Notes: generated from the letters alone by a model not told the origin. A DNA stretch of 24,424 nt from a virus (IMGVR_UViG_3300025411_000083:1-24424); one strand, 5' to 3'; numbered from the stretch's first letter, positions 6,010 through 22,955 are shown. Translations and numbers: made by a program.

Positions 6010-6013
6010 TTAT

Positions 6014-7560: not shown

Positions 7561-7562
7561 AA

Positions 7563-8096: not shown

Positions 8097-8742
8097 AAAT
8101 AAAATTGCCATTCTTATTACAACTTATTGTGATAATGAAATACGTCATTTTATGACCGAAACAATTTGTGAGAAGTTAAGTAAATCCGGTTACCATATCT
8201 GCCTAACTAGCCATACTTTGGTAACAGAAAAAGCATTAAAGTATTGTGATAGCTTTCTTTATGATGCCGATAATTCAACTTTAGTTGACGGTAGAAATAC
8301 CATGACTAATAATACTCCTGCCGAAACTACTTGCATGAACATGGGGTTAGATTATCTACAATCAAAAGGATTTACTCATGTATTTAAAACAAATTATGAT
8401 GTAAATCCTAGTATTGATATTAACAAAATTATTGAAACACACGCTTCTAAAAATAAAAAATTGGTGGCAACAACCAATGGTGATGAGTGTGCTATGTTAT
8501 CTTACTTTGGTGAAATTAGTTTTATCAAAGAAACATGGAACTTTGATATGTTAAGAAAATATGGCTTTGATAATATTGCAGAGATGGCATGGAAAAAATA
8601 TATTAGAGAAAAAGGTTGGTTAGATGATGTTTGTATGGATTATAAAACTGATGGCCAACTTTTACTTATCGGTGAGCAAAGAGTAAATTTTTACCATGCT
8701 GGTGGTATGAATTATTTAAATGAATATAAAACAAAAATATAA
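8089..8742 (+). CDS. probable glycosyltransferase of unassigned family
   Basis: A 217-aa protein starting KIAILITTYCDNEIRHFM, a GT-A-like first strand (V/I-L-I-T-T-Y). It has GFTHVFKTNYDVNPSID in the middle, where NYDVN takes the place of a DxD site. MGLDYLQSKGF before it resembles the helix that precedes the DxD strand in GT2-type proteins. LVATTNGDECAMLSYFGEISFIK continues the fold. No textbook motif is complete, so the assignment leans on context between a methyltransferase-like gene and an oxygenase gene. The stop and the next start share one base (TAATG). Confidence 0.5.
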   Translation: MDKNKIAILITTYCDNEIRHFMTETICEKLSKSGYHICLTSHTLVTEKALKYCDSFLYDADNSTLVDGRNTMTNNTPAETTCMNMGLDYLQSKGFTHVFKTNYDVNPSIDINKIIETHASKNKKLVATTNGDECAMLSYFGEISFIKETWNFDMLRKYGFDNIAEMAWKKYIREKGWLDDVCMDYKTDGQLLLIGEQRVNFYHAGGMNYLNEYKTKI

Positions 8743-9497
8743 TGTATATTAATAAACAAAATTGGAATAAATTATCTGAAGATTTTCTTTCACAAGAACC
8801 ATTTAATCATGTAGTGATTGATAATTTCTTTACTAAAGAATTTGCAGAAGAAATTGTTAAAGATTTACCATCCGATTACGAGAAAAATGTTGATGGCAAA
8901 TATGATAATGCGATTGAAAAGAAAAGAACTATTCAGAATTGGTTAAAACTTGATAAGAATGTTTATAAAGCAATATTTCATTTGCTTGATTTTGAATTTG
9001 TAAATAATCTTAGAACACTAACTAAACAAAAACAATTAGTTGCTGATTATGGTTTACACGGAGGTGGTGTGCACATGCACCAAGCAGGTGATTATTTGAA
9101 TGTTCATTTTGATTATGATATTCATCCTAAATTAGACATGAAACGCAAACTCAATTTAATTGTATACATGAATCCTAATTGGCAAGAATCTTGGGGTGGT
9201 AATTTGGGTTTATGGTCACATGATGAAGAAACACAACAACCAAAAGAACTTATCAAATCAATACCTCCACTTTTTAATCGAGCAGTCATATTTGATACTA
9301 CACAAAATTCTTGGCATGGAGTAACCGAAGGTATATTTTCACCTGAGGGACAATACAGAAAAAGTATTGCTACTTATTATTTAATACCAACGGATGATGT
9401 AAAAAATAAAAGACAAAAAGCTTTATTTGTACCAAGAGCAGAACAAAAAGATAATGAAGAAGTTAAAGAGTTAATCAAAAAAAGGTCAGGATATTAA
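8742..9497 (+). CDS. 2OG-Fe(II) oxygenase, prolyl 4-hydroxylase-like
   Basis: Iron(II)- and 2-oxoglutarate-dependent oxygenase that hydroxylates an unknown substrate. The metal triad is visible: HFD at residues 122-124 and a distal His at 192 in NSWHGVTEG. Arg 206 and Ser 208 in YRKSIATYYL would bind 2-oxoglutarate. The spacing and the segments GGGVHMHQAGDYLNVHFD, LNLIVYMNPNW and WGGNLGLW match the double-stranded beta helix of P4H-type enzymes common in marine T4-like phages. In the window it lies amid glycosyltransferase and methyltransferase genes, so a glycan or glycosylated virion protein is a plausible target. Ribosomal or other host protein hydroxylation cannot be excluded. Confidence 0.88.
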   Translation: MYINKQNWNKLSEDFLSQEPFNHVVIDNFFTKEFAEEIVKDLPSDYEKNVDGKYDNAIEKKRTIQNWLKLDKNVYKAIFHLLDFEFVNNLRTLTKQKQLVADYGLHGGGVHMHQAGDYLNVHFDYDIHPKLDMKRKLNLIVYMNPNWQESWGGNLGLWSHDEETQQPKELIKSIPPLFNRAVIFDTTQNSWHGVTEGIFSPEGQYRKSIATYYLIPTDDVKNKRQKALFVPRAEQKDNEEVKELIKKRSGY

Positions 9498-9498
9498 A

Positions 9499-10047
9499 AT
9501 GTCACATCCACAACAAAGAGAATTTTTACAATCAGTTAAAAATAATTTTTCTGGTTATTTTAATGGCAAAAAAGTATTAGAAGTTGGAAGTCTAAACATT
9601 AATGGATCCGCAAGAGATTTTTTCTCTAATTGTGATTACGTTGGAATTGATGTAGGACCAGGAAATGGTGTTGATATTGTTTGCCAAGGTCAAGACTTTG
9701 ATGCACCAAATGAAACATTCGATACAATTATTTCATGTGAGTGTTTTGAACATAATCCAGAATGGGTTGCAACATTTACTAATATGCACAGAATGTGTAA
9801 GACTGACGGATTGATTATAATGACTTGTGCAACTGGTGCTAGATTAGAACATGGTACAAGTAGGTCGGATCCAGATGCATCACCATTAACAAGAAATATT
9901 GGTTGGGAATATTACAGAAATTTAAGTGAAAAAGATTTTCGTGAACACTTTGATATTGAATCAATGTTTAAAAAGTTTCAATTTAGTTTAGGTTGGTTTA
10001 GTGGTACAGAACCTATGGATTTATATTTTTATGGAATAAAAGCATGA
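9499..10047 (+). CDS. SAM-dependent methyltransferase (class I)
   Basis: A 182-aa Methyltransf_11-like enzyme. VLEVGSLNINGSARDFF (residues 26-42) is a motif I variant with the acidic residue before the glycine-rich turn. YVGIDVGPGNGVDIV (47-61) supplies the Asp that would bind the SAM ribose. FDTIISCECFEHNPEW (about 74-89) is motif IV with the FEH typical of these proteins, and CKTDGLIIMTCATG is the motif VI strand. It begins 1 nt after the oxygenase gene and ends in ATGA with the next gene. Glycan modification is inferred from context. The substrate is unknown. Confidence 0.82.
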   Translation: MSHPQQREFLQSVKNNFSGYFNGKKVLEVGSLNINGSARDFFSNCDYVGIDVGPGNGVDIVCQGQDFDAPNETFDTIISCECFEHNPEWVATFTNMHRMCKTDGLIIMTCATGARLEHGTSRSDPDASPLTRNIGWEYYRNLSEKDFREHFDIESMFKKFQFSLGWFSGTEPMDLYFYGIKA

Positions 10048-10772
10048 TATCATTTTTTCATATTGCTTCGGTTTATCCGAAATCTACAGAAGTTGCTATT
10101 CAAAATGTCAGGTTACACCATCCTGATAGTTATTATTTTTTAGCTGTTGATGGAAATAGACCAGAATATCTTAATATTGCCGAACAATATAATTGTGATT
10201 GTGTAATCTATGAAAATCGCCTTGGTGGTACTTTTGGTGAATATGGATGGACACTTGAGAATGTTCTTCAATTTTTAGAAAGATTTAAAGAAGCTTGTCA
10301 ACGATGCAACACATCACATATTATTATGATGGAAGATGATGTATTAATTACCAGACCAATTACGGTAGAAGCAACTTGGGAACACGCTTGTGCTGATACA
10401 AAAATTGGTAATATTATACCGGAAGAAATACATGATTTAATTGAAAAGTTTTGTGGTAAAAGACCTACATTTAAACAGTATGGTGCTGGTGGCGGTTCAA
10501 TATTTAATGTCTTGACATTTTTAGAAAATTATGATAAAATAACTAAGTATCTTGAAGAAATTTATAAATTACATAATCAATATCCACCTTTAGGTTATGT
10601 TGATTGTTTGATGAATGTTTATTATTATCTTTGTGGAAAAGATTATTCGGTAAATCCACATAGAACTGATACACATAACCATAAACCTGGATTTGATTAT
10701 GAATCGTTTATAAGTAACCAATCAAGCGATATACAAATTATTAACAATTATAAAAAATATTATTATGAATGA
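10044..10772 (+). CDS. glycosyltransferase-like protein with EDD motif
   Basis: A 242-aa GT-A-like protein. HIIMMEDDVLI (residues 92-102) is a strong metal-binding DxD-type motif at the end of a hydrophobic strand. The first strand ISFFHIASVYPKSTEVAI followed by YYFLAVDG fits a nucleotide-sugar fold. YGAGGGSIFNV (about 146-156) is a glycine-rich acceptor-side loop. Near the C-terminus DTHNHKPGFDYE offers a possible catalytic/metal His. ATGA overlap upstream and an 8-nt overlap downstream keep it in the island operon. No specific donor or acceptor can be assigned. Confidence 0.68.
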   Translation: MISFFHIASVYPKSTEVAIQNVRLHHPDSYYFLAVDGNRPEYLNIAEQYNCDCVIYENRLGGTFGEYGWTLENVLQFLERFKEACQRCNTSHIIMMEDDVLITRPITVEATWEHACADTKIGNIIPEEIHDLIEKFCGKRPTFKQYGAGGGSIFNVLTFLENYDKITKYLEEIYKLHNQYPPLGYVDCLMNVYYYLCGKDYSVNPHRTDTHNHKPGFDYESFISNQSSDIQIINNYKKYYYE

Positions 10773-11568
10773 AATTACTATTGTAACAGCCTTCTTTGAT
10801 ATTGGTCGTGGTGATTGGACTCCAGACAAAGGTCTACCACATTATTTACAGAGAACTAATCAAACTTATCTACAAAGATTTGGTAATATGAGCACAATCA
10901 AAAATAAAATGATTGTGTATACCGAAGAAAGATTTGTTGAAGATATTAAATTTTATCGTAAAGATAATCCAACCGAAATTCTTGTAGTTGATTTTCAAAA
11001 TTCATTTGAAAAACTCCGTGAAAAAGTTTCTACGGTTCAAAAGAATCCAGAATATCAAGCGAAAATAAATCCCATGCAAGTACGCAATCCAGAATATTGG
11101 AATGCTGATTATGTTGTAGTAAATGCTTTAAAATCCACTTTTGTTTCTAAAGCTATTGAACTAGGTCATGCTGTAACTGACTTGGTTGCTTGGCTTGACT
11201 TTGGTTATTGCCGTGATGAATCTACACTTAATGGTGTAGAACTTTGGCAATATCCGTTTAATAAAGAAAAAATTCATTTGTTTAACATCAAAGAATGGAA
11301 AGAAGGAACAATTATTCAAGATGTTATTGCTAATAATGATGTCCATATTACTGGCCCGTGTATTGTTGCTGGCAGAGAAATGTGGTCAAAATTAGAATAT
11401 CTTGTTCACCATTCTATTGAAGAAATGGTTAAGAACGATTTAATTGATGATGACCAAACTATGTTATTGATGTCATATCTGTTTGCACCAAATATATTTG
11501 AATTACATCCAGTATCTCCAGATAACTGGTTTGTTGCTTTTAAGGAATATAATGAAAATACAAATTGA
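10765..11568 (+). CDS. HtrL/YibB-like protein, probable glycosyltransferase
   Basis: A 267-aa protein whose N-terminus ITIVTAFFDIGRGDW (residues 4-18), then MIVYTEERF (49-57) and LVAWLDFGYCRD (140-151) follow the pattern of the HtrL/YibB/WlaTC family. That family is found in lipopolysaccharide and capsule clusters and is thought to be of glycosyltransferase type. The order of elements is conserved: TAFFDIGR, then an I/V-Y-(T/C)-(E/D) strand, then WxDxG(Y/I)CR. IVAGREMW occupies the later nucleotide-binding region. It is coupled to its neighbours by 8- and 17-nt overlaps. The biochemical reaction of the family is not firmly established, so the role in the phage glycan is inference. Confidence 0.72.
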   Translation: MNEITIVTAFFDIGRGDWTPDKGLPHYLQRTNQTYLQRFGNMSTIKNKMIVYTEERFVEDIKFYRKDNPTEILVVDFQNSFEKLREKVSTVQKNPEYQAKINPMQVRNPEYWNADYVVVNALKSTFVSKAIELGHAVTDLVAWLDFGYCRDESTLNGVELWQYPFNKEKIHLFNIKEWKEGTIIQDVIANNDVHITGPCIVAGREMWSKLEYLVHHSIEEMVKNDLIDDDQTMLLMSYLFAPNIFELHPVSPDNWFVAFKEYNENTN

Positions 11569-12280
11569 TTGTACGGCCAATCTTGGTGATTTTTGTAATG
11601 CTTTACCAGTAATTTCTGGCATTTCAAAATATGTTAATGAAAAAATTGATATTATTATTCGACCAGAAATGCGTAAGTTCAATGGCATTAAAGAATTTTT
11701 ACTATATCAGCCAATGTTTAATTCAGTTGAATTTGCTGATGAAGTATTTACCTATGGTGATATTATGAAGCTTAGTTCATGGACTCGCATGGACCAAGAG
11801 AATGAAAATCGACCTATTGAAACTTGTCGTTATGAGAATTGGGTGAATGATAATTACAGAATGTTGTTTGAAGTGGATGATGATTTTGAGATACAGGTTG
11901 GACCAATGCCTTTTACTTTAAGTGATATTATGAGTAAAACTGTCATTGGTGACCGATGGAATCATGAAACGATTGATACACGAAGAAATACCAATATAGT
12001 TGAACATGGGGTAAAACCAGACCCATTAAAAGTAATCTATCTCGACTATTCAAAACCAATTATGGAAAATTTGAATATTATTAAAAATAATCCTAATCCT
12101 TTTATTACTACGTTTACAGGTATTGGTATTATTGCTGATTTAATGAATAAAGAAACTATTGTTTGCTGGGACGAAGATATGAGAATGTGGGATGGTCAAC
12201 CTGTTGAGTTTGACTTCAAGCGACACTATTATGGTAATCGCAAATCAAAATTAGTTTATGTTAAGGATTTAGTAATATGA
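11552..12280 (+). CDS. GT-B-like (heptosyltransferase-type) glycosyltransferase, probable
   Basis: A 242-aa protein beginning KIQIDCTANLGDFCNALPVI, which resembles the GDF/GD-x-x-x-LPV loop at the start of family 9 (ADP-heptose LPS heptosyltransferase) GT-B proteins. IDIIIRPEMRKF supplies the second strand. The C-terminal half (FITTFTGIGIIADLMNKETIVCWD) looks like a degenerate donor-binding side. The ATG at 11552 is chosen because AAGGA (11542-11546) precedes it by 5 nt and the residues after it start the fold. An upstream in-frame ATG at 11483 would overlap the previous gene by 86 nt. It pairs with the next gene, which has a clearer family 9 signature. Confidence 0.6.
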   Translation: MKIQIDCTANLGDFCNALPVISGISKYVNEKIDIIIRPEMRKFNGIKEFLLYQPMFNSVEFADEVFTYGDIMKLSSWTRMDQENENRPIETCRYENWVNDNYRMLFEVDDDFEIQVGPMPFTLSDIMSKTVIGDRWNHETIDTRRNTNIVEHGVKPDPLKVIYLDYSKPIMENLNIIKNNPNPFITTFTGIGIIADLMNKETIVCWDEDMRMWDGQPVEFDFKRHYYGNRKSKLVYVKDLVI

Positions 12281-12990
12281 TTTATAATATTCGTAAAGGT
12301 GTTTTTGGTAATTGTATTCGCAACGGAGATTTAATTGCAGTTGCTAATGTAGTTGAACATCTAAGAAAAGTTAATGATGATAAAATTAGATTTTGGATTG
12401 ATCCTGCGGCACTAAGTCAAGAAAAATATGTACAAAATTTTCATACTTGGATGATTGGAATGACCGATTATTTTTCTGCTTTTGAAGGAAATCAAGATTT
12501 ACCTTGGAAAAATGTCAATCTGTGGGATTTTCGTGATATCATTGGAGATTTGGTAAAAATACCAAACCATCAAAAACCAGAATTCAAAATTGTTGTATGT
12601 CCAGTCTTAGATGCTCCGTACAATACATACAGAAATTGGCCTAAGCCAGTTTTTGAAAAAATATTAAAAATATGTGAACAAGGATATCCGAATAACTTTG
12701 AAAGAGTTCTTTGTGTATCACCTAATGTTGATTTAACTGATTATGATACATCTAGATGGCAAGTCAGTACCAATTTTATAGAAAATCTTCACCACATTAT
12801 GAATACACAGGTTTTTATAGGTGGTGATACCGGTACATCTCATTTTGCATGGGCTCTTGATACTGGACCTAAAGAGCTTATCTATTATAACTCTAGTCGA
12901 GGTTTAGTACACACATTACCTTTCTATTTGTTGAAGGGTAAAGGTGAAATGCGAACTTATTGGCTGGATTTCGAAGGAACTAAATTTTAA
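12277..12990 (+). CDS. GT9-like glycosyltransferase (GT-B, heptosyltransferase-related)
   Basis: A 237-aa protein with VFIGGDTGTSHFAWAL at residues 179-194, which matches the donor-site signature (GGD-x-G-x-x-H-x-A-x-AL) of family 9 heptosyltransferases. The N-terminus NIRKGVFGNCIRNGDLIAVANVVEHL resembles the GD-x-x-x-A-N-V-V-x-H-L loop of the acceptor half. YRNWPKPVFEKIL corresponds to the W-P-x-x-x-(F/W) segment before the second domain. It is shorter than bacterial heptosyltransferases (about 340 aa). It is the last gene of the island and is followed by a 123-nt gap containing the late promoter of the next block. The sugar transferred is unknown. Confidence 0.68.
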   Translation: MIYNIRKGVFGNCIRNGDLIAVANVVEHLRKVNDDKIRFWIDPAALSQEKYVQNFHTWMIGMTDYFSAFEGNQDLPWKNVNLWDFRDIIGDLVKIPNHQKPEFKIVVCPVLDAPYNTYRNWPKPVFEKILKICEQGYPNNFERVLCVSPNVDLTDYDTSRWQVSTNFIENLHHIMNTQVFIGGDTGTSHFAWALDTGPKELIYYNSSRGLVHTLPFYLLKGKGEMRTYWLDFEGTKF

Positions 12991-13060: not shown

Positions 13061-13068
13061 TATAAATA
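13061..13068 (+). promoter_or_regulatory. T4-type late promoter box TATAAATA at the start of the late block
   Basis: An exact late promoter box (TATAAATA, followed by AGG) in the 123-nt non-coding gap between the glycan island and the gene at 13114, 45 nt upstream of its ATG. Of the three copies of this motif seen it is best placed: it is intergenic and heads a run of co-directional genes reaching at least to 21630. I saw no clear terminator hairpin in the rest of the gap (12991-13060). Confidence 0.72.
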
Positions 13069-13113
13069 AGGTGTACGGCAACCAAAGTGTGTTGCAAATC
13101 TGTAAGGAAATCA

Positions 13114-14292
13114 ATGTTATCGTTTAAAACTTTTTTAAAAGAAGAAACCGAAGAAGGTTCAAAACTTAAGCATATACATCATGCTGAAGATAGACCTCTA
13201 TTTCACGGTAAAAAAGGATTTGAACACGCCAAAGGCGCACTAAACCAAGCTCATGAACATATGAAGTCTGGTGGAGATAGTTCTGCTTTAACAATGAAAT
13301 ATGATGGTTCTCCTGCAGTAGTATTTGGACACCATCCAGAAAATGGTAAATTCTTTGTAGCTTCAAAATCTGCTTTTAACAAAAATCCAAAGATTAATTA
13401 TACACACGCAGATATCGTAAAAAACCATGGTCATGCGCCAGGATTGGTAGAAAAACTCCACGCAGCATTAAATCACCTCAAAAAAGTTGCACCAAAAACT
13501 GGCGTATATCAAGGTGATATTATGCACTCTGGTACTGATTTAAAAAATGAGAAGAATGGTAAAGTATCATTTACACCTAACACAATTAAATATACCGCAT
13601 CTGGAGATGAAGCTGATAGAATCAAAAAATCTAAAATTGGTATAGTAACTCACACACAATATCACGGTAAAGATATTACCTCGATGAAAGCTGATTCTCA
13701 TCCAGACTTACACAATTTCAAACAACATCCTGATGTTTGGCAAAAATCACCTAATCACGACACAAAACAAATTCATTATTCTGAAAAAGACCAAGCTGAG
13801 TTTCATAAACATATGGATGCGGCTGAAAAAATACACAAAGAACATGGTAAAACCATGTATAAGTCCACAGAACCTCATCAAGGTGAATCCGGACACTTAG
13901 CAACCTATATAAATCATACAGTTAGAACAGGTGAAACACCGTCAGCTGAGGGTTTAAAAGCTCACATTACTGATAAGTATAAAAAAATATCCAGTAAGTT
14001 AAAAACTCCAGCAGCACAAGCTCGTAAAAATACTGAGTTATCTGCACACATAAAACACATAGATGCACACAAGAAAGACTATGATAATTTGTTAAAAATG
14101 CACCATCATTTACAACAAGCTAAAAATATTTTAGTTAAAAATTTGGAACAACATGAAGGTGGTTTGGAACATCATATAGATAGTAAGAGAACTGGTCCTG
14201 AGGGTTTTGTAGTGAATCATGCAGGTGAACCAACAAAATTAGTCAACCGTGCCGAGTTTGCTCGTGCCAATTTATTAAAGGTAAGAAAATGA
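13114..14292 (+). CDS. covalent nucleotidyltransferase/ligase-like protein with capsid-targeting-like N-terminus
   Basis: A 392-aa protein of a family I know only as conserved hypothetical in T4-like phages. It shows the motif order of the ATP-dependent ligase/capping superfamily: KYDGSP with candidate nucleophile Lys 62 (motif I), VASKS (82-86, Ia-like), GVYQGDIM (130-137, III-like), GPEGFVV (361-367, IV-like) and KLVNRAEF (375-382, V-like). A long His-rich helical insertion (about 215-350) separates motifs III and IV. The first 10 residues, MLSFKTFLKE, resemble the T4 capsid-targeting sequence, with L-K-E as a gp21-type cleavage site. The ATG at 13114 has TAAGGAAA just upstream. A GTG at 13087 in the same frame lies before that ribosome site and is rejected. 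Ligase-type activity is inference, and the substrate (RNA, DNA or protein) is unknown. Confidence 0.6.
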   Translation: MLSFKTFLKEETEEGSKLKHIHHAEDRPLFHGKKGFEHAKGALNQAHEHMKSGGDSSALTMKYDGSPAVVFGHHPENGKFFVASKSAFNKNPKINYTHADIVKNHGHAPGLVEKLHAALNHLKKVAPKTGVYQGDIMHSGTDLKNEKNGKVSFTPNTIKYTASGDEADRIKKSKIGIVTHTQYHGKDITSMKADSHPDLHNFKQHPDVWQKSPNHDTKQIHYSEKDQAEFHKHMDAAEKIHKEHGKTMYKSTEPHQGESGHLATYINHTVRTGETPSAEGLKAHITDKYKKISSKLKTPAAQARKNTELSAHIKHIDAHKKDYDNLLKMHHHLQQAKNILVKNLEQHEGGLEHHIDSKRTGPEGFVVNHAGEPTKLVNRAEFARANLLKVRK

Positions 14293-15698
14293 CAACAATA
14301 CAAGAAATGATTTATCGTGAAAGGGCAGGATTACTAAAAGAAAATTTTGGCGATGACCATGATTTTAGTTCTTTAAAACCACATCATTCTTATACAACAA
14401 AAGATGGTCACCAAGTTGATGTTCATATCTTCAATAATCCTAATGGTAAACATGCTATTTTTTATAATAAAAATTTGAATGGTATAACAAAATTGGTTCA
14501 TTGGGAACATAATGCTGAACATCCGACTAAAGATGAATTGGAAAAAGCTGGGCACGAAGAATTTGAAGAAGAAAATACACGTTTAAATGAAGAAAAAAAA
14601 GAATTAGGACTTTTAGGTGATACTGGAGGAAAAGTAACAGAACACTCAGCAATTATACACTTAATTCATCATATGCACACACAACATGGAACATATGGTT
14701 CAGTAGAGCATAAAAAAGATTTGGCGCCGCACGAAAAAGCTCTAAAAGATATGAAGAGCAAATATGTTACAAATAAAACACAAGAAAAAGAATTTAGAGT
14801 TAGACAAGCTCACGGTAAAGCAGCAGCAAGTTCGATGATAGAATCATTGAAACAAAAACATGGACCACACGTTAGAATTGCTGCAGTTGGTCATACAGCA
14901 AAAGAAGGCGACATTGGAAGATTTACTAATGGCAAACATAATGATACTCAAGATAATCCGTCGGATGTTACAGTAAAAACTTATGTACCAGGTCATTTAA
15001 AAGAAGAATTTGGTGCCGGACACGAGCATAGTTATGAAGGATTTTCATTAAAATCATCTAAATCTTCAAAAAGAATAACAACTAAAAATCCTGCAATACA
15101 TTTAGATGGTATGTTGGACCATTCAACTAGAAAATTAAATACAGAAAAAATTGCAAGAGATGGATTGAAAAAAGTTCACCATGAAATGGGTCACGGCGAT
15201 AAGTCTGCTGCTGAAAGGGGAAGATATATCGAGGCTGTCAGAAAGAAAGAAGGTGTACCAAATCGTTCTTCTGTTGAAGAAAAAGCAAGTAAATTAGCTC
15301 AACCTGTACATAAAGCAACAGCTGAAGAATTACATGACCACATACATCATTTATTACACAATACCGGAGATGAAGGACATAGAATGGTTGGTCGTATGTT
15401 GAAAAAACATTTAACACCACATACTGGAATGCCTTGGTCTAAAGTTCATGTGATGGGTAATGAAGAACATAAAGTTAAAGCTTCAGTTACTCCAGGAAGT
15501 GAACATCCTTTAAATAAAGTTTTTAATAGTAAAAAAACAAAATACGCAGTATCAAGAAGTGGTGCTACTGTAACTTTACACAAAGTTGAAAAAGATGGTT
15601 CACATACTGCATTAGCACATTATAGACCAAAAACAAACAGTAATGCTTTAAAATCTGATACTTCAAACTATACTGTAACTCCAGCGTACTCACACTAA
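14289..15698 (+). CDS. conserved phage protein of unknown function, possible nuclease-like fold
   Basis: A 469-aa protein linked by an ATGA overlap to the ligase-like gene and by a 1-nt overlap (TAATG) to the next. I do not recognise a named family. Features seen are a charged, His-rich composition, GLLGDTGGKVTEHSAIIHLI near residues 107-126, NPSDVTVKTYV at 223-233 and YEGFSLKSSKSSKRITTKNP at 249-268. The E119, D226 and S-L-K255 arrangement is reminiscent of PD-(D/E)xK-type nucleases in which the usual acidic residue before K is lost. This is weak. The N-terminus MTTIQEMIYRERAG has a loose capsid-targeting flavour (I-Y-R-E) but not the full pattern. Its location between two nucleotide-handling proteins suggests they act together. 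Confidence 0.55.
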   Translation: MTTIQEMIYRERAGLLKENFGDDHDFSSLKPHHSYTTKDGHQVDVHIFNNPNGKHAIFYNKNLNGITKLVHWEHNAEHPTKDELEKAGHEEFEEENTRLNEEKKELGLLGDTGGKVTEHSAIIHLIHHMHTQHGTYGSVEHKKDLAPHEKALKDMKSKYVTNKTQEKEFRVRQAHGKAAASSMIESLKQKHGPHVRIAAVGHTAKEGDIGRFTNGKHNDTQDNPSDVTVKTYVPGHLKEEFGAGHEHSYEGFSLKSSKSSKRITTKNPAIHLDGMLDHSTRKLNTEKIARDGLKKVHHEMGHGDKSAAERGRYIEAVRKKEGVPNRSSVEEKASKLAQPVHKATAEELHDHIHHLLHNTGDEGHRMVGRMLKKHLTPHTGMPWSKVHVMGNEEHKVKASVTPGSEHPLNKVFNSKKTKYAVSRSGATVTLHKVEKDGSHTALAHYRPKTNSNALKSDTSNYTVTPAYSH

Positions 15699-17593
15699 TG
15701 AAATCATTTTTAGAAATACTTGAAGAAGCAGAAAAGAGTGCCAAACCGGTGGTGATGGCGTTTGGCCGCATGAATCCTCCAACAACTGGTCATTTAAAAC
15801 TTATTGATAAAGTAAAATCCACAGCTGAAAAACTTGGAGCTAAACACACCGTTGTAGTTTCACATTCACAAGATTCTAAGAAAAATCCTTTATCTGGCGA
15901 ACAGAAGATTAAACACCTAAAACGTTATTCTTCTGGTACCAATTTTCAATCTTCATCTAGTCAACATCCAACAATATTGCACCATGCTGCAAAATTACAT
16001 GGAATGGGACATGACGAACTTCATGTTATTGCTGGGTCTGACCGTGTTAAAGAAATGGAACATCTATTACACAAATATAATGGTGTAAAAGGTAAACATG
16101 GTTATTATAATTTTAAAAAAATAAGAGTACATTCTGCTGGTCACCGTGATCCTGATGCTGAAGGTGCAGAAGGTATGTCTGGTACTAAAATGAGAGAGCA
16201 TGCAAAGAATAATGACTTTTCTTCATTCCGTCAAGGCGTACCACATCATGTTTCCGCTGAACACGCAAAAGAGTTAATGCATGATGTTCGTAAAGGTATG
16301 GGATTAAACGAATCTTATAATCGTGGTATGTTCAAAGCTATTTTTATTACTGGTGGGCCAGGTTCTGGTAAAGATGTTATTATTCGTGAAGCCATTGCTT
16401 CTGAGAAAGCAACCGAATTAAATTTCACACAAGTTCTTGATATTCTTAATGATAAACATAAACTTGCAATGAAATCAATGAATCCAAAATTTGAATCAGT
16501 TCGAACCAGAAATCCACTTATTATTAATGGCCCAGCAGATGATTTAGAAAAGATTAATCATATCAAAGAAGAATTAGAAGAAATCGGTTATTCTACCATG
16601 ATGATTTTTGTTAATACCGATAATAAAACCAGTCAAGAAAGAAATTCTTCATTGTCTAGAGTTATGGTAGAATCAATTAGACAAGAAAAATGGTGTAAAT
16701 CTCAAGAAAATACTAAATATTTCACCGAGTTATTTAATAATTTTATCAATTTTGATAATACAGGAAATTTAGATAATAAAGAAGAAGATATAACTGAAAT
16801 ATATCAAACTACTCAAAATTTCTTGGATTCTACGAAAGTAGATATGGTAGTTGATAATTGGCTAAGTAAAACCATTAAGGAAGAAAATGTTAAGAAAACT
16901 AATGCAAAAGCTATTCAGCTTAAAACCGTTGGAAAATACAACCCGAGTTTTAGAGCAAAAGGACCAGCCGATATCAAAAGAGATAACTCCGGTTCCCTTG
17001 TCTACGGAAAAGACCAAATCTCAGGAGATACCGGTCCAAGAAAAGACCCTAACGGTAGAGGACACTCCGGTGGAGCATGGTCAGGCGTCTACAATACCAG
17101 TTATAACACCGAAGAAAAAGGTCCAACCATCAAATTCAACCCGCCGGCCAAAGAACCAAACTTCAACTACGACAAAGACAAGCTCAAAAAGCAAAAAAAA
17201 GGCGATAAAAGTTTAAGTGCAGGACGTGTAGCTAGACCGGATGGTGTTACACCAACATACGATACAAGAGCGGGTGGCCAAGGTGCTGCAGCAGGCGCCG
17301 GACTTGGCAACCAAACATACAGCGAAACAGTAGATTATAACAATGATGACGTATCTAATTTTAGTGCTCAGAGTGGTTCAGTTCAAGCGAATCCTCTAAG
17401 CTCAGCTTATGAACAAAAGAAGTCATTTGATAGATTTAGAAAGAAGATTAAAAAAGAAGCAATAGATAGTCCAGGTGAAGTAGCAATGGGTGTCGGAGGT
17501 ACTTTAATGGGTGGTAGTAATAAAGAGCCTATGGAAACATATGCTGACCGTAAAATTGGTATAGAAGTAGATAAAAAGAAGAAGAAAAAATGA
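15698..17593 (+). CDS. TxGH nucleotidylyltransferase fused to P-loop kinase-like domain, with capsid-targeting-like N-terminus
   Basis: A 631-aa three-part protein. Residues 16-200 form a cytidylyltransferase-like domain, with VVMAFGRMNPPTTGH carrying the TxGH motif (29-32), IAGSDR (111-116) and SGTKMRE (161-167), the counterpart of ISSTxxR. Residues 212-400 hold a P-loop, AIFITGGPGSGKD (214-226), in a kinase-like fold. The order nucleotidylyltransferase then P-loop kinase is that of NadR (NMN adenylyltransferase plus ribosylnicotinamide kinase), so NAD metabolism is a reasonable guess but not shown. Residues 400-631 are low-complexity Gly/Asn/Lys-rich, with a conserved-looking ending (SPGEVAMGVGGTLMGG) and a poly-Lys tail. 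The first ten residues, MKSFLEILEE, fit a capsid-targeting sequence. Codon use changes abruptly at about 16920-17210, where another frame is open. Confidence 0.75.
   Translation: MKSFLEILEEAEKSAKPVVMAFGRMNPPTTGHLKLIDKVKSTAEKLGAKHTVVVSHSQDSKKNPLSGEQKIKHLKRYSSGTNFQSSSSQHPTILHHAAKLHGMGHDELHVIAGSDRVKEMEHLLHKYNGVKGKHGYYNFKKIRVHSAGHRDPDAEGAEGMSGTKMREHAKNNDFSSFRQGVPHHVSAEHAKELMHDVRKGMGLNESYNRGMFKAIFITGGPGSGKDVIIREAIASEKATELNFTQVLDILNDKHKLAMKSMNPKFESVRTRNPLIINGPADDLEKINHIKEELEEIGYSTMMIFVNTDNKTSQERNSSLSRVMVESIRQEKWCKSQENTKYFTELFNNFINFDNTGNLDNKEEDITEIYQTTQNFLDSTKVDMVVDNWLSKTIKEENVKKTNAKAIQLKTVGKYNPSFRAKGPADIKRDNSGSLVYGKDQISGDTGPRKDPNGRGHSGGAWSGVYNTSYNTEEKGPTIKFNPPAKEPNFNYDKDKLKKQKKGDKSLSAGRVARPDGVTPTYDTRAGGQGAAAGAGLGNQTYSETVDYNNDDVSNFSAQSGSVQANPLSSAYEQKKSFDRFRKKIKKEAIDSPGEVAMGVGGTLMGGSNKEPMETYADRKIGIEVDKKKKKK
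16887..17216 (+). CDS. candidate overprinted gene in the +1 frame of the nucleotidylyltransferase-kinase gene
   Basis: A 109-codon ATG frame wholly inside the 631-aa gene, shifted +1. It has a near-ideal ribosome binding site: AAGGAAG at 16877-16883, with 5 nt between AAGGA and the ATG. The product is hydrophilic, basic and rich in Thr, Pro, Ser and Lys, with no membrane segment or known motif, and ends in a Lys-rich tail. Through most of the nested frame the host frame uses many C-ending codons (gac, aac, tcc, acc, tac), unlike the T/A-ending codons on either side, and the shift fades near the nested stop. A similar shift marks the genuine nested spanin gene at 23534. Against it, C-rich wobble positions by themselves give Ser/Pro/Thr/Ala in this frame, so the frame could be a by-product of recombination-derived codon use. 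Confidence 0.35.
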   Translation: MLRKLMQKLFSLKPLENTTRVLEQKDQPISKEITPVPLSTEKTKSQEIPVQEKTLTVEDTPVEHGQASTIPVITPKKKVQPSNSTRRPKNQTSTTTKTSSKSKKKAIKV

Positions 17594-18687
17594 AAAATTT
17601 TAAGCAATTTTTAGATGAAAAAGGCAGATGCTGGACAGGATACAAACCAGTTCCTGGTAAAAAACCATATTCAAAAGGATCTTGTAAAGAAGAAGAAGTT
17701 GAATTGGATGAAGGTGCTAACGTGTCTTATAATGCTACGGTTTCACATCCTCATTTTGGTGAAAAAAAACATGAAGTTGAATATTCTGCTCTATCATCAC
17801 ACCATGCTGTTGAAGAACTCCAAAAGAAAGGTTTTACAGTTCATAAAATAAGACCTACTTACCAACAAACAAATAATGAAGAAGTTGAATTGGATGAAAT
17901 GGATAAAAGTCAAAAATCACAGGAACGCCACGGTGATTATCCTCTTGGTGTTAAAAATAAAGATGCAAATATGGTTAAACCAATTACTTCAAAAAAAGTA
18001 AAGAAAGATACCTTGAAATTATTAAACAAGGCGTTTAATAAAGAAGAAGTTGAATTGGACGAAAGGTCAGATTATGCTAGTAGACATCCAATAACAAAAG
18101 GTATTATTGGTGGTCGTGATAAAGGTGCTGAGTTATTTGGGGGTAAAAAACAATATGACACTTTAGCAAATAGAAGAAAACCTGGACATGAAGTTGCTCA
18201 TGCTAAAGCATTAGGCCACCAAGGCGGAGACGAAAAAGAACAACAAGCTAAACTTAAAGCTGCATTAAAATCTAAAAATGAAGAAGTTGAATTCTACGAA
18301 GAATATGATACTGAAGAATTGTTTGATATCTTAGAAGAAGTTGTTGATGGTATTGCTGAAGAAAGCAATATTGATCCAGATATTCTTTGGGAAAATTTAG
18401 AAGATGTTACAGACGAAGAATTATTTGAAACTGCCGCTTGGCGTAGAAAAGAAGGTAAGAGTGCTACTGGTGGATTAAACCGTAAAGGCATTATGTCTTA
18501 TCGTAGAGAAAATCCAGGTTCTAAATTAAAGATGGCCGTTACAGGCAAAGTAAAACCTGGTAGTAAAGCTGCCAAGCGTAGAAAATCATTTTGTGCTAGA
18601 ATGTCTGGCATGAAAGGTCCAATGAAGAAACCTAATGGTAAACCAACAAGAAAAGCACTAGCATTACGCAAGTGGAAATGCAGATAA
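17590..18687 (+). CDS. charged phage protein with EEVELDE repeats and basic C-terminal domain; capsid-targeting-like N-terminus
   Basis: A 365-aa protein of a kind common in marine T4-like phages, function unknown. The N-terminus MKNFKQFLDE matches the capsid-targeting pattern with L-D-E. It is followed by GRCWTGYKPVPGKKPYSKGSC (12-32 region), a recurrent phage segment with two Cys. Four copies of an acidic heptad follow: EEVELDE at 35-41 and 97-103, the same at 152-158 and a degenerate EEVEFYE at 231-237. Each of the first three contains the gp21-type L-x-E signature. The C-terminal 85 residues (WRRKEGK, GGLNRKG, KAAKRRKSFCARM, MKGPMKK, RKALALRKWKC) are very basic and well conserved in my recollection of such phages, suggesting nucleic acid binding. 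ATGA overlap with the preceding gene. An internal, proteolytically processed virion protein is a reasonable inference. Confidence 0.7.
   Translation: MKNFKQFLDEKGRCWTGYKPVPGKKPYSKGSCKEEEVELDEGANVSYNATVSHPHFGEKKHEVEYSALSSHHAVEELQKKGFTVHKIRPTYQQTNNEEVELDEMDKSQKSQERHGDYPLGVKNKDANMVKPITSKKVKKDTLKLLNKAFNKEEVELDERSDYASRHPITKGIIGGRDKGAELFGGKKQYDTLANRRKPGHEVAHAKALGHQGGDEKEQQAKLKAALKSKNEEVEFYEEYDTEELFDILEEVVDGIAEESNIDPDILWENLEDVTDEELFETAAWRRKEGKSATGGLNRKGIMSYRRENPGSKLKMAVTGKVKPGSKAAKRRKSFCARMSGMKGPMKKPNGKPTRKALALRKWKCR
17692..18300 (+). repeat. dispersed 21-nt coding repeat encoding EEVELDE
   Basis: Four in-frame copies of a 21-nt unit starting GAAGAAGTTGAATTGGA lie at 17692-17712, 17878-17898, 18043-18063 (one change) and 18280-18300 (diverged at the end). 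Related copies occur in the next gene at 19647-19667 (EEVELSE) and 20241-20264 (EEVEELDE). Spacing is irregular, so this is not a tandem array. The near identity at DNA level suggests recent duplication or recombination among linker segments as well as selection on the peptide. Confidence 0.75.
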
Positions 18688-18701
18688 AATAGGAGAAAAA
18701 A

Positions 18702-20558
18702 ATGTTTGCAAAAAATAAAGTATCACAATCAATGATTGATGCGGTTAATTCTGTATTAAATGAAGAAAAGAAAGAATTGTTGCTTGAACCAAAGAAAAAA
18801 GAAATAGATGAAACAGGCTTTCATAAAGCTGCTCATGCTGCTCGTAAATCTGGCCAATCTCATTTTGAGTTCCAAGGTAAAAAATATCCTGTTACTGTTA
18901 AATCCTACAAAGAAGCCATTGAAATGGATGAAGCTGCTGAGAAAGTACCTACTGCTACCGGCATGAAAGTATATGGTTCAAGTTATGGCAATTCGATGAA
19001 AGCTCGCAAAGACCAGTTGAAATCTCCTGTTGATGATGTTAAAAAAGGTCCAACAGAAAAAAATATTAATAATAAAAGCTCTACAGGTGTACAATATCAC
19101 CACAGCGTAAAAGAAGATGGTGATTGTGTTACTGAACCACAAGCAAAAAAGATTGCTAAAAAAGAAGTTAGTCACCATAATATAACAATGCACAAAGGCC
19201 AAAAGAATACTGTTAAAGAAGGTACTTTTGCTTCTAAGTTATTAGCTATGACCGAAGCTAAAGGTCCTTTGGCTGGTGCTCCTGAAGAATTTACCGACAA
19301 TAATCTTGGTGAAGAAGAAATGACTGACGCTCAAATGAAGAAGCGTGAAAAGATTGTCATGTCAATGAAAAAAGGTATGGCAGGTTTCAAACAGCGTTAC
19401 GGTAAAAATTGGAAGAATGTAATGTATGCTACTGCTACAAAACAAGCGATGAAAGAAGATTCTTCTGATACATGGAACGGTTCATACGATTTTGTAATTA
19501 GTGAACAAGAAGTTGAAATTGAAGAAGGTGATGCAAGTTACAAAAAGAATCCTCCAAGAACAAAAATGGCTGATGTTGTTGACCGTAAAAAGACTGTTAA
19601 AGATTTGTTGAAACCTCGTCAATACTTTGGTACAGGTAAAGTAAAAGAAGAAGTTGAATTATCCGAAAAGAATGATTCACATACACATGCTGCTCACTAT
19701 GAAAACGAAAAGGGTGAATGGAGTGGTATGAAGTTGTTTACTGCTAAAGATGACCAAGATGCAATCAGACAAGCTCATAAAAACTGTGAAAAAGGTTGCC
19801 GTTTATCTAAAGTAGAACGTCATATGACAGTTAAAGAAGAATATTTCAATGAGGCTGAAGAAGTTGTTTCAACAGGTAAAAAAGAAACACACTCAACTGA
19901 TATGTTACGTGGTCGTGTAAGTGGTGTTGCTAAGACAAATTCATTTAAAAATTTTAAATCAGAATTAAAGAGTGGTGGCGGCATGGAAGCTCCAAGTGAT
20001 ATGGAAAAGGGTGAAGATACAAAAGAGAAACAAAAGATTACTACTAATCCAGGTCCTGTAGATATTAAATTTGATGATAAATTGGGTCGCCCAAATCCAT
20101 ATACACACTTTAAAGATGAAAAACATATTACAAGTGAAGAAGTTCGTGGTGAATTAAAGAAGATGCGTGACCATCAAAAAAAAGAGCACAATAAAGAATT
20201 ATCTCACTTTGAAAAAATGGAAAAAGATGCCTTCAAAAAAGAAGAAGTTGAAGAATTAGATGAAGATTCTGCATTAGACCAATTTCTTTCACAAAAGGGA
20301 CTTAATACAGTAAATCTTTCAAGAGATAAAAAAATTAGTTATGCTAAATCAAATGAATTCATGAGATGGAAACAAAACCATCAAATGGAAGCAGCTGAAA
20401 TTCCATTTGAAGGTCCTTATACAAAAAATCCAAAAAATGTAAAAGATAAATCTGGTGCAGTACATACACCAATGAGTCGTGCAAAAGATTTAGCTCGTCA
20501 AGCATTTAAAAAACTTAAAAAAGAAACAATGATGGGGAAAATTTCTGGTGGCGTCTAA
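18702..20558 (+). CDS. large Lys/Glu-rich phage protein of unknown function, probable virion-internal or core protein
   Basis: A 618-aa hydrophilic protein with no membrane segment. The start at 18702 has AGGAG 7 nt upstream. Recognisable blocks recur in such phage proteins: GFHKAAHAARKSGQSHFEF (39-57), MKKGMAGFKQRYGKNWKNVM (a basic helix near 225-245), a CEKGCRLSKVERH segment near 365 and ALDQFLSQKGL near 525. It shares with the upstream protein the acidic linkers EEVELSE (316-322), EEVEELDE (514-521) and EVEIEEG, which contain L-x-E or I-x-E signatures, and an early VLNE at 18-21. These would suit processing by a gp21-type prohead protease. The alternation of acidic linkers and basic blocks looks modular. 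A role in the prohead core or as injected protein is inferred. Confidence 0.62.
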   Translation: MFAKNKVSQSMIDAVNSVLNEEKKELLLEPKKKEIDETGFHKAAHAARKSGQSHFEFQGKKYPVTVKSYKEAIEMDEAAEKVPTATGMKVYGSSYGNSMKARKDQLKSPVDDVKKGPTEKNINNKSSTGVQYHHSVKEDGDCVTEPQAKKIAKKEVSHHNITMHKGQKNTVKEGTFASKLLAMTEAKGPLAGAPEEFTDNNLGEEEMTDAQMKKREKIVMSMKKGMAGFKQRYGKNWKNVMYATATKQAMKEDSSDTWNGSYDFVISEQEVEIEEGDASYKKNPPRTKMADVVDRKKTVKDLLKPRQYFGTGKVKEEVELSEKNDSHTHAAHYENEKGEWSGMKLFTAKDDQDAIRQAHKNCEKGCRLSKVERHMTVKEEYFNEAEEVVSTGKKETHSTDMLRGRVSGVAKTNSFKNFKSELKSGGGMEAPSDMEKGEDTKEKQKITTNPGPVDIKFDDKLGRPNPYTHFKDEKHITSEEVRGELKKMRDHQKKEHNKELSHFEKMEKDAFKKEEVEELDEDSALDQFLSQKGLNTVNLSRDKKISYAKSNEFMRWKQNHQMEAAEIPFEGPYTKNPKNVKDKSGAVHTPMSRAKDLARQAFKKLKKETMMGKISGGV

Positions 20559-21630
20559 ACTAAAGAAAATTCTCAAAGATGTTGTTAAGAGAAATCCTGA
20601 ACCGGCCAGAGGTACTAATTATGTGGACCCTGGCCAATTAGGACAATACTCTGCACAGAATCAAGTATCAGAAGATATGACCACAAGTAAAAGAGGTGTA
20701 AAGCCTCCTAAAATTCGTGGTAAAGAAGCTGGAGAACCAAGGTCGAGCGATAAAGATTCTCCCACATTACAACACGTGCAAAGAATTAAACAAGCTGAAA
20801 AACATTATTTGGTAAAAACGCCGCCTGGAGCTTTAAGAAAATTAAATAAATCAGGCGTAATTAAAAATGCACCAACTGCTTTAAAAACAATAGATAGAAC
20901 GCAAGGTTCACAAACAACTCAATTGACTCCTGAGGAAACACAAATGAATGAAGCAAAGAAAACAAAAAGAATGTCTGGTGCTGATAGGTGGCGTAAACAT
21001 TTGAGTGATATAGATAGAGCACACAAAGAATTTATGAAAAGTATTGAACATCTACCACATAAAGACCAAACGCAAGCTATAATGGATAAAATCAAAGCAA
21101 ATAGAGCGGCTATGCATAATGAAGATATGAATCCAAATTCACCTAAGGCTAATTTTGTTGCTAAAGAATTAAAAGGTGTTAGGAAACGTTCCGATTTTAA
21201 TACTTTTAAAGAAGGTGGAGATTTAATGGGTGACCCAAAGGCTGCTGAGATATCTCCAGCTGATGGTGCAAATGGTGGTAAAGAACTCGCTGATGAAAAA
21301 ATGAAACCATCTAGAGCCAAACTGATTAAGATGATAGTTAAAAATAAAATGGTCAAAGAAGATTTGTATGACCATGAAAAAGAAGATAAATCGGTACAAA
21401 CTTATGGTAAAAAACCAAAATTTGATAAAGCTGATAAAAAAGATAGTGAAGGTGAGAAAAAACCATCGGCTGCTGCAATAATGACTGGTGGTACAACATT
21501 AACTGGTGAAAAACGTGATACCGTTGAAATCGATCCAATGATGCGTAATCGTCCTGGTCAGCCAGATGTCACCAAAAAAGATGACAAGAAAAAAGACGAT
21601 AAAAAAGAAGAAAAGAAGAAAGATAAATAA
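20548..21630 (+). CDS. hydrophilic phage protein of unknown function with Lys-rich tail
   Basis: A 360-aa protein starting at a GTG (20548) that overlaps the preceding stop by 11 nt. GGGGAAA at 20534-20540 is its likely ribosome site. It is basic throughout. The N-terminus (KLKKILKDVVKRN) could be an amphipathic helix, NYVDPGQLGQYSAQNQVSED follows, and the protein ends in an almost pure Lys/Asp/Glu tract (last 25 residues). A middle segment (SGADRWRKHLSDIDRAHKEF, near 143-162) looks helical. There is no enzymatic signature and I do not recognise a family. Position and composition group it with the two preceding charged proteins. It ends just before a strong ribosome site for the next gene. 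Confidence 0.6.
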   Translation: MASKLKKILKDVVKRNPEPARGTNYVDPGQLGQYSAQNQVSEDMTTSKRGVKPPKIRGKEAGEPRSSDKDSPTLQHVQRIKQAEKHYLVKTPPGALRKLNKSGVIKNAPTALKTIDRTQGSQTTQLTPEETQMNEAKKTKRMSGADRWRKHLSDIDRAHKEFMKSIEHLPHKDQTQAIMDKIKANRAAMHNEDMNPNSPKANFVAKELKGVRKRSDFNTFKEGGDLMGDPKAAEISPADGANGGKELADEKMKPSRAKLIKMIVKNKMVKEDLYDHEKEDKSVQTYGKKPKFDKADKKDSEGEKKPSAAAIMTGGTTLTGEKRDTVEIDPMMRNRPGQPDVTKKDDKKKDDKKEEKKKDK

Positions 21631-21662
21631 CAATATAACCAAGGCTAATTAAGGAGAAAAAA

Positions 21663-22295
21663 ATGCCAGCATGGTCAAATACAGATGCGCCAAATGCAAA
21701 ACCAAAATGGGATGTCGAAAGACAGACAAGAGAAGTAATTCAGTTGCCAGTTTTAACTGGTAATACACCTGGAAACAATATCATTGTTGTTTCATACAAT
21801 GACGGTGCTCAAAATAACGTAGCTAATATTGGCGTTGTTGCTGGTCAATATGTTTATTTTTGGGCAAATGGAGCAAACACTTATGGTGGTCAAGCAGGTA
21901 ATGGCGTACCAGGTATGTTCTTCTCTAATACAACCGTTTCTTCAACAAGTGGTAATACAGTTACATTAACTAATAATCTGTTTAATACTGTATCCGCTGG
22001 ATTTACTGTTGAATTTGATAAAACTATTGCTTATAGTGCATCTAAACCAAATATGGGTGGTAGTGCATATAATGCAAACACAGTTTTGGTAACAGATACT
22101 AGAGGAATGACAGCAAATCAAGCTGTTTCTTTAGGTAATCTAAACGCTGGATGGGTTAATATTATCAAAACAACTAATAATGATGGAACAGTTCGTTACC
22201 GTCATGAAACTTTAGTTGTATTAGCAAATCCAACAGCATCAAATGTTTATTCTGGTAATACTGGTTGGGGTAGCCCTTTCGTTCCTGGTGTTTAA
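21663..22295 (+). CDS. conserved beta-rich phage protein, probable virion component
   Basis: A 210-aa protein with a strong ribosome site (AAGGAG, 7-8 nt before the ATG), the best in this part of the window, which suggests high expression. The composition (Asn, Gly, Thr, Val, Ala; almost no Lys after the first 30 residues) is quite unlike its Lys/Glu-rich neighbours and typical of beta-structured virion proteins. DVERQTREVIQLPVLTGNTP, SYNDGAQNNVANIGVVAGQYVYF and ETLVVLANPTASNVYSGNTGW are segments I recognise from hypothetical proteins of T4-like marine phages. No function is established to my knowledge. Attachment to the capsid or tail surface is a guess. Confidence 0.7.
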   Translation: MPAWSNTDAPNAKPKWDVERQTREVIQLPVLTGNTPGNNIIVVSYNDGAQNNVANIGVVAGQYVYFWANGANTYGGQAGNGVPGMFFSNTTVSSTSGNTVTLTNNLFNTVSAGFTVEFDKTIAYSASKPNMGGSAYNANTVLVTDTRGMTANQAVSLGNLNAGWVNIIKTTNNDGTVRYRHETLVVLANPTASNVYSGNTGWGSPFVPGV

Positions 22296-22306
22296 TATTA
22301 ATTGTT

Positions 22307-22341
22307 AAGGGTGGGTATGGTTTCATACCCACAATAATATG
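22307..22341 (+). promoter_or_regulatory. Shine-Dalgarno, 9-bp hairpin and start codon arrangement (T4 gene 38-like) for the gene at 22339
   Basis: AAGG(G) at 22307-22311 is followed by a perfect 9-bp stem, GTGGGTATG (22311-22319) with CATACCCAC (22324-22332), around the loop GTTT. After it come AATAAT and the ATG at 22339. The linear distance from AAGG to ATG is 28 nt, far too long for initiation, but folding the hairpin leaves only six unpaired bases between them. T4 gene 38 is known to bring a distant Shine-Dalgarno close to the start in this way. No T-run follows the stem, so an intrinsic terminator is less likely. Confidence 0.55.
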
Positions 22342-22725
22342 TTTGAAGAATTGAATGAAGAAAACATTATGATATATGCAATGAAGTGTTATAATACTCC
22401 AAATTGTGTAATGTCTGAATTTGAAAGTGATATTAAAAGAACCAAATATCTCAAAAGATTATTTCGTAGATACAAAGTTACCAAATCACTTAAAGAAAGA
22501 TTAATATTAAATCATATCATTCTATTAAATAATGTTTTTGGGCCAGAACCAACATCAAGAATATTATTTTATAGAATTGATGAAAGAGATTATGATATAT
22601 TGAAAACTTTTTTGCTTTATTTAAATATATTACCAAAAATAGTATACGGTATTAATAATAAAAATATATTTACTGATGATATACCGGTAGATATGCATAT
22701 AGCAGACGTATTAAGGAAAATATGA
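22339..22725 (+). CDS. conserved small T4-like phage protein of unknown function
   Basis: A 128-aa protein rich in Leu, Ile, Lys and Arg. Segments IYAMKCYNTPNC, FESDIKRTKYLKRLFRRY, LKERLILNHIILLNNVFG and LKTFLLYLNILP are familiar from a widespread hypothetical family in T4-like marine phages, predicted helical. No enzymatic motif or signal peptide is present. No function is known to me. The start codon lacks a directly adjacent Shine-Dalgarno and is preceded by a stem-loop that may present one. ATGA overlap with the next gene. Confidence 0.75.
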   Translation: MFEELNEENIMIYAMKCYNTPNCVMSEFESDIKRTKYLKRLFRRYKVTKSLKERLILNHIILLNNVFGPEPTSRILFYRIDERDYDILKTFLLYLNILPKIVYGINNKNIFTDDIPVDMHIADVLRKI

Positions 22726-22955
22726 AATCTTTCAAAGAATACATCCAAGAAATGGGTGGAGGCGGTGGCGGAGGAGCAGCAGGAGGCGCTGTTGCTGCTG
22801 GACCAACAAATACAACAAGCGGTGGTCAAGTTGCAGGTATGGGACAACCACCAGGTAGTAAGTCTGGTGAACCGGGTGTTGATTTGAGAAAACGCAAGAA
22901 AAAAGTTGCCGATCCACGATTACCGATGGGTATTGGCAAACGAAAGGATTTCTAA
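22722..22955 (+). CDS. small Gly-rich phage protein with capsid-targeting-like N-terminus
   Basis: A 77-aa protein made of three parts: MKSFKEYIQE (residues 1-10), a glycine/alanine-rich linker with PTNTTSGG, and a basic tail (LRKRKKKVADPRLP, GIGKRKDF). The first ten residues are the closest match in the window to the T4 internal-protein capsid-targeting sequence (MKTYQEFIAE), with I-Q-E as the gp21-type cleavage signature right before the glycine run. A short leader plus a basic body is what a small DNA-associated internal head protein would look like. Similar small proteins are frequent in marine T4-like phages. Function is inferred, not known. Confidence 0.68.
   Translation: MKSFKEYIQEMGGGGGGGAAGGAVAAGPTNTTSGGQVAGMGQPPGSKSGEPGVDLRKRKKKVADPRLPMGIGKRKDF

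Follow-up and report, generated by a model that had tools for sequence, protein, structure and literature searches.

Capsid targeting sequences are already known, as is the recognition of internal protein genes in T-even phages by means of them. Genetics of the leader of the T4 internal protein IPIII assigns targeting to residues 4 and 7 and processing to residues 8 and 10 (PMC9026906). In T4, gp21 trims the two ends (ITE-6 and LTE-619) of Alt, an ADP-ribosyltransferase packaged in the head, and the prohead protease of SPN3US and phiKZ cuts packaged ejection proteins after x-x-E (PMC5694885). Enzymes are also listed among the virion proteins of cyanophages, in papers that, in the parts available to us, describe no signal for packaging and allow for contamination. 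Here we analyze a fragment of a T4-like phage (IMGVR_UViG_3300025411_000083), whose whole record of 24,424 bases is our window. Four of its genes start with nearly the same ten residues, and a preliminary description made from the sequence had proposed that this start is a T4-like capsid-targeting tag. We place at about 0.86 the probability that the leader is a capsid targeting sequence of the T4 internal-protein type, which loads enzymes into the head.

The leader in the window and among its relatives

The leaders, all on the plus strand, are MLSFKTFLKE (13114..13143) of a DUF6267 protein, MKSFLEILEE (15698..15727) of a nucleotidyltransferase-kinase, MKNFKQFLDE (17590..17619) of a DUF6321-domain protein and MKSFKEYIQE (22722..22751) of a protein of 77 residues. 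They span about ten residues of the common form M-x-x-F-x-x-[F/Y/I]-[L/I]-x-E, with hydrophobic or aromatic residues at positions 4 and 7 and with [I/L]-x-E as residues 8-10 in all four. A check of the sequence found each start where the preliminary description had placed it. For the first, an in-frame GTG is present upstream at 13087, yet AAGGAA precedes the ATG. From residue 11 on, the bodies of the four proteins have no significant mutual similarity (best E 0.14), and the description of them as otherwise unrelated holds.

The scan motif followed the T4 genetics: a hydrophobic residue at 4 and at 7, I or L at 8 and E at 10. Matches to it at in-frame ATG starts were set against matches at codons of the same reading frames that are not starts. 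Every in-frame ATG was included because start choice by the Shine-Dalgarno sequence missed some leaders. The window has four matches versus 0.07 expected (p 2.5e-6), a value biased by the choice of the residues permitted at 4 and 7, which were picked with the four leaders in view. Less biased tests are provided by 12 other genomes and by 157 loci of viral contigs, collected with the nucleotidyltransferase and DUF6267 as bait, in which the non-bait families were counted. The 12 complete genomes, T4 included as positive control, gave 26 matches versus 4.0 expected (p 3.6e-13, with orthologues that are not independent). Outside both bait families the 157 loci contain 87 tagged open reading frames, with 3.7 expected over all reading frames; among their products are DUF6321 proteins, HAD phosphatases, HExxH metalloproteases and, in the slot after DUF6267, members of several unrelated families. 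Among cytoplasmic early proteins of the complete relatives, the T4-based motif is on none of DNA polymerase, UvsX, gp41, primase and ribonucleotide reductase. In T4 itself the scan recovered gp24, gp61.1 and two internal protein genes. Of these, gp61.1 (L292; T4 18966-19130, minus strand) is a protein of 54 residues annotated as hypothetical; it starts MKTFKEFIKE and fits the capsid targeting sequence no less closely than the known internal proteins do. A second match in S-SM1 (minus strand, 125212) was dropped, as it lies in a TTG frame that overlaps a gene.

The positions that matter in T4 are the conserved ones. In the DUF6267 protein, where 118 of 120 alignable relatives in the 157 loci are tagged, F4, F7, L8 and E10 stand at 87-98%, and residues 2, 5, 6 and 12-20 (the linker) are variable; among distinct sequences, position 8 is L or I in 91 of 92 and position 10 is E in 90 of 92. 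The codons of the conserved F4, F7, L8 and E10 change synonymously, and therefore selection acts on the protein. The nucleotidyltransferase leader has M1, K2, F4 and E10 at ≥90% in 30 relatives, and is kept in 9 phages despite linkers of 0 to ~90 residues before the domain. The leader at 17590 recurs in 8 of 11 alignable homologues, and homologues of the 77-residue protein start MKSFKTFINED, MKTFKKFIDED and MKTFKQFLEED. One might explain the likeness by common descent or by a bias at translation starts, without any signal, as the A/T-rich first codons of phage genes favour K, F, N and I. We regard this as very improbable, given the synonymous change at the four positions, the position-specific conservation that gives way to a variable linker, the unrelated bodies, and the lack of a single match in the neighbouring window families (14289, 18702, 20548, 21663 and 22339) across the same loci.

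The leader is a portable add-on, the same on unrelated bodies and dispensable to the fold. It is present on the DUF6267 proteins of the window, C48C1, Melnitz and DLP6 and on none of the cyanophage DUF6267 proteins. Five fusions of DUF6267 with the nucleotidyltransferase (L189, L190, L193, L200 and L202) have a single leader, at the N-terminus; in S-PM2 the two are also fused, without a leader. This presence and absence within one family, with a single copy in fusions, is the behavior of the portable targeting tag that had been suggested. The NMNAT of S-CBWM1 lacks the leader, as expected because it belongs to another lineage (S-CBWM1 and S-TIM5 are non-T4 cyanomyoviruses with virion kinases or NMNAT). 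In S-CRM01 (loci L293, L294), g185, annotated as an acetyltransferase, has the leader MKTFDEFLTEG, and g33, beside a terminase gene, has MRTFESFLAEAD; both are predicted cargo.

Virion proteins, prohead protease and late promoter

The virion evidence is the published, mutually independent mass spectrometry (MS) of three relatives, S-CREM2, S-SM1 and S-SCSM1. Six of their seven tagged proteins are in the virion lists (P ~5e-4, Poisson-binomial with the detected fraction of each proteome, which treats the seven tagged proteins together). Fisher combination of the three tests gives a p of only 0.013 because two of the phages have one tagged gene each. In S-CREM2, four of five tagged proteins were detected, according to table 3 of PMC10665884: the SAM hydrolase gp6 (MKDFDSFLEE), the small protein gp13 (MKDLHSFLTE), the APH/ChoK-like kinase gp14 (VKRFDAFLTE) and the cytidylyltransferase gp154 (MKNFSSFLTE). 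From residue 11 the sequence continues as ADEKQQQAPK in gp154 and as FDRDQESLEESSLSR in gp6. The remaining enzyme on that list with neither a structural nor a lysis function is a Cas9-like nuclease with LRFASFMAEA at residues 17-26, the annotated start of which may be mis-set. The genomes of S-SM1 and S-SCSM1 contain a single convincing tagged gene apiece, for the cytidylyltransferase T4-GC190 and for an NMNAT (MKSFLQFLKEA), respectively, and both products are in the virion lists. The S-CRM01 kinase that starts MISFDQFLSE is probably the virion kinase of Dreher et al., as cited in PMC10665884. Through these relatives, whose detected proteins include orthologues of the nucleotidyltransferase, the earlier proposal that the tagged enzymes are packaged in the capsid gains support; the leader argues for packaging of the virion enzymes and not for contamination.

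The gp21 protease is encoded in all 12 complete relatives and in 8 of 8 large related contigs. All 17 major capsid proteins compared have L-x-E at the site that corresponds to the T4 gp23 cut, and therefore the protease rule appears unchanged. The first element of the operon is a T4-type late promoter, an exact match to TATAAATA (13061..13068, plus strand), 53 bases upstream of the start at 13114. Of 99 distinct relatives, 64 have an exact TATAAATA in the 150 nt that precede DUF6267, mostly at a distance of 45-54 nt from its start; the background frequency is 0.8% per 150 nt. This conserved late promoter fits production while heads are assembled. Taken together, the enrichment of the leader, the conservation of its targeting and cleavage residues, its modularity, the gp21 and L-x-E of relatives, the late promoter and the virion MS of orthologues speak for a T4-like capsid-targeting function. 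Targeting and packaging are supported; cleavage after residue 10 and injection would follow by analogy with T4.

Several observations weigh against this interpretation. The MS data come from relatives of this phage. S-CREM2 gp175 (55 residues) is tagged and was not detected in the virion, S-PM2 has no tagged gene by the T4-based motif, and HTVC008M has a single doubtful match. Position 8 is V or Y in many nucleotidyltransferase relatives (V in 23 of 109), which by the T4 rule would be cleaved poorly, and the virion proteome papers, in the parts available to us, report no peptides starting at residue 11. A Pfam S77 search for the protease found nothing in the 24-kb window; the fragment carries no head genes. 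Lastly, the authors of two proteomes state that such enzymes could be contaminants of caesium chloride preparations. On that account the leader, a generic short amphipathic helix, would attach cytoplasmic phage enzymes to one another, or to some partner from the host, during infection. We find this account improbable. Abundant replication enzymes, the likeliest contaminants, are almost absent from the S-CREM2 list that holds the tagged enzymes, and the leader ends in the recognition motif of a protease that is always present. Moreover, jumbo-phage homologues of the nucleotidyltransferase, which adjoin a DNA methyltransferase gene, have no leader and start straight at the domain.

Predicted cargo proteins and their gene setting

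The first predicted cargo protein (13114..14292, plus strand) belongs to DUF6267 (Pfam, E 1e-100), a family present in at least 470 phage records. K62 and G65 are invariant and D64 is near-invariant; E363-G364-x-V366 is invariant and K375 near-invariant. These residues make up motif I (KxDG) and the later E-G-x-V and K motifs of the ligase/capping superfamily. The AlphaFold model has a mean predicted local distance difference test score of 90.5 (below 50 for residues 1-15) and a helix at residues 4-12. Foldseek searches with it return RNA editing ligase 1, capping enzyme and NAD+ ligase repeatedly, at E 1.2 or worse, which is not significant, and alignment profiles compared with the PDB gave chance matches only. 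The protein is probably a covalent nucleotidyltransferase of the ligase/capping type; of the ligase-like enzyme put forward earlier, the motifs stand and the fold matches fall short of significance.

The second predicted cargo enzyme (15698..17593, plus strand) combines a cytidylyltransferase/NMNAT-like domain (PF01467, E 1e-5; phrog cytidyltransferase, 3e-63) with a P-loop kinase of polynucleotide/NMP-kinase likeness. It contains the nucleotidyltransferase motif GRMNPPTTGH ((T/H)xGH) and a separate P-loop, GGPGSGKD; Foldseek matches ATP sulfurylase (5e-8), adenylate kinase (1e-5) and polynucleotide kinases (~1e-4). Both motifs and matches to both types of domain agree with the nucleotidylyltransferase-kinase of the preliminary description, and we predict an NMNAT/cytidylyltransferase-like domain fused to an adenylate/polynucleotide-type kinase. 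In C48C1 (L002:15998-16064), the cytidyltransferase is annotated to start at 16064; with the GTG at 15998 as start, the leader (M)IKNFSQYLLEE is regained. Between the two enzymes is a variable cargo-slot gene (14289..15698, plus strand) for 469 residues, the N-terminus of which, MTTIQEMIYRERAGLLKEN, is at best an atypical leader. In relatives this slot is occupied by unrelated proteins with clear leaders (MKSFLEMLSEAE in L226, MKSFKFWLKEQ in L288 and MKSFIQFIKES in L223).

The gene at 17590..18687 (plus strand) encodes a cargo or core protein with a basic C-terminal DUF6321 domain (PF19846, E 3e-21). It has three exact EEVELDE repeats, at 17692, 17878 and 18043, each of which is an L-x-E, and 9 [I/L]xE versus 3.8 expected after shuffling. 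EEVELDE/EEVExLDE repeats are also present in the gene at 18702; both slot proteins are long and charged, and in relatives EEVEQIDE-type motifs occur up to eight times. The repeats could be further gp21 sites, possibly in a core polyprotein. That they are general in the group was considered and rejected, as they are confined to the 17590/18702-type slot of some relatives. The gene at 18702 starts with a second, longer type of leader, MFAKNKVSQSMIDAVNSVLNE (18702..18764, plus strand), a conserved block of residues 1-21 in 20 distinct homologues, with E21 in 18 of 20, L/I/M at 19 and variable sequence beyond.

These two genes raise the alternative that the tagged proteins are components of the prohead core, or of its assembly, that give the head its shape and are either lost or kept, without being injected; the leader would still dock and be cleaved. 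Their charged sequences, with repeats that could be cut into fragments, resemble T4 gp22, gp67 and gp68, and the tagged g33 of S-CRM01 adjoins terminase genes. Other tagged proteins are enzymes with conserved catalytic motifs, unneeded for head assembly (SAM hydrolase, kinases, nucleotidyltransferases, HAD phosphatases and HExxH proteases), and gene content varies freely among relatives. We judge this alternative unlikely, if still a serious contender to delivery of the cargo with the genome.

The window opens with the C-terminus of a DNA polymerase, followed by uvsX (62-64% identity to C48C1 and to Stenotrophomonas phage DLP6), gp41, a block of glycosyl-/methyltransferase-like genes and then the operon, which runs from 13114 to ~23200 with genes that mostly overlap or almost abut. 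Kyanoviridae share the gene set of the operon. In HTVC008M, Melnitz and several cyanophages it follows gp41 closely; in C48C1 it lies further downstream. In the window, gp41 and the operon are separated by the block at 5966-12990, some ten genes of glycosyltransferase, methyltransferase and oxygenase likeness, which has no counterpart at that place in Melnitz or HTVC008M. Between the late promoter and the ribosome site is a hairpin of the 5' untranslated region (GCAAC-CAAAGTGT-GTTGC; 13078..13095, plus strand). Its 5-bp stem varies in a compensatory manner (GCAAT/ATTGC, ACAAC/GTTGT and GTAAC/GTTAC) around the near-constant loop CAAAGTGT, and 52 of 53 stem-forming copies in the 157 loci come after a late promoter. 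It has no match in Rfam, and is possibly an element for the stability or translation of late mRNA. The DNA polymerase (34-2183) is apparently split into a polymerase-like reading frame (34-348), an HNH-endonuclease-like one (395-1090) and a C-terminus with its own start (1080-2183); the S-CREM2 polymerase is likewise annotated as two genes.

Proposed role and comparison with known systems

Late in infection, the operon would be transcribed from the promoter at 13061. As short amphipathic helices with hydrophobic residues 4 and 7, the leaders would attach the enzymes to the prohead's scaffold core, and gp21 would cut after [I/L]-x-E at residue 10, both steps as in T4. The mature enzymes would thus be freed inside the head before the DNA is packed, would exit with the DNA at the next infection, again on the T4 precedent, and would act ahead of phage gene expression. 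A reasonable guess is that the cargo repairs RNA, DNA or NAD against a first-response defence. More broadly, and as a tentative proposal to which we give somewhat less than an even chance, aquatic T4-like phages (Kyanoviridae and relatives) may have a late, leader-addressed cargo operon with interchangeable enzyme slots, preloaded to disarm or repair the first-response defences of the host. If so, the slots would hold the ligase-type nucleotidyltransferase, the NMNAT-like/polynucleotide kinase-like nucleotidyltransferase-kinase and a HAD phosphatase; cargo encoded elsewhere in the genomes would include SAM hydrolase, kinases and the Cas9-like nuclease; and tRNA or DNA breaks, NAD depletion and restriction would be countered before any phage gene is expressed.

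Our literature search, which left most subscription journals outside its reach, found no paper that connects capsid targeting sequences with cyanophages, with other aquatic T4-like phages or with the enzymes in their virions. The lineage, the predictive value of the leader and its cargo of enzymes appear to be new. For the virion enzymes of cyanophages, which are genuinely packaged or, as their authors say, contaminants, a ten-residue leader would predict cargo from sequence, and the injected proteome of aquatic T4-like phages would become listable from genomes and metagenomes. As a delivery address, the leader would be testable and usable for loading foreign proteins. In some lineages DUF6267, the name of which assigns no function, is probably a ligase-type enzyme that is injected.

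The closest likeness is to the T4 internal proteins IPI, IPII and IPIII (MKTYQEFIAE), which share the ten-residue leader, the hydrophobic or aromatic residues 4 and 7, [I/L]-x-E at 8-10, the unrelated bodies and a gp21 in the genome (here, in the genomes of relatives). Unlike them, the cargo here consists mostly of large enzymes and not of small nuclease inhibitors, and its genes make up a single operon that has a late promoter and lies near replication genes; residue 2 varies (L/K/Q/Y), and there is a second, longer leader type. SPN3US and phiKZ, of a different lineage, differ by the motif A/S/G-x-E and by propeptides that are often long. T4 Alt is likewise an enzyme carried in the head, as predicted here, whereas no ADP-ribosyltransferase was recognised in the window and the leader is closer to those of the internal proteins than to that of Alt. 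The NMNAT/cytidylyltransferase, kinases and SAM hydrolase of cyanophage virions (S-SM1, S-SCSM1, S-CREM2 and S-CRM01) include an orthologous nucleotidyltransferase with the same leader; the window adds its fusion to a P-loop kinase and a DUF6267 protein that bears a leader.

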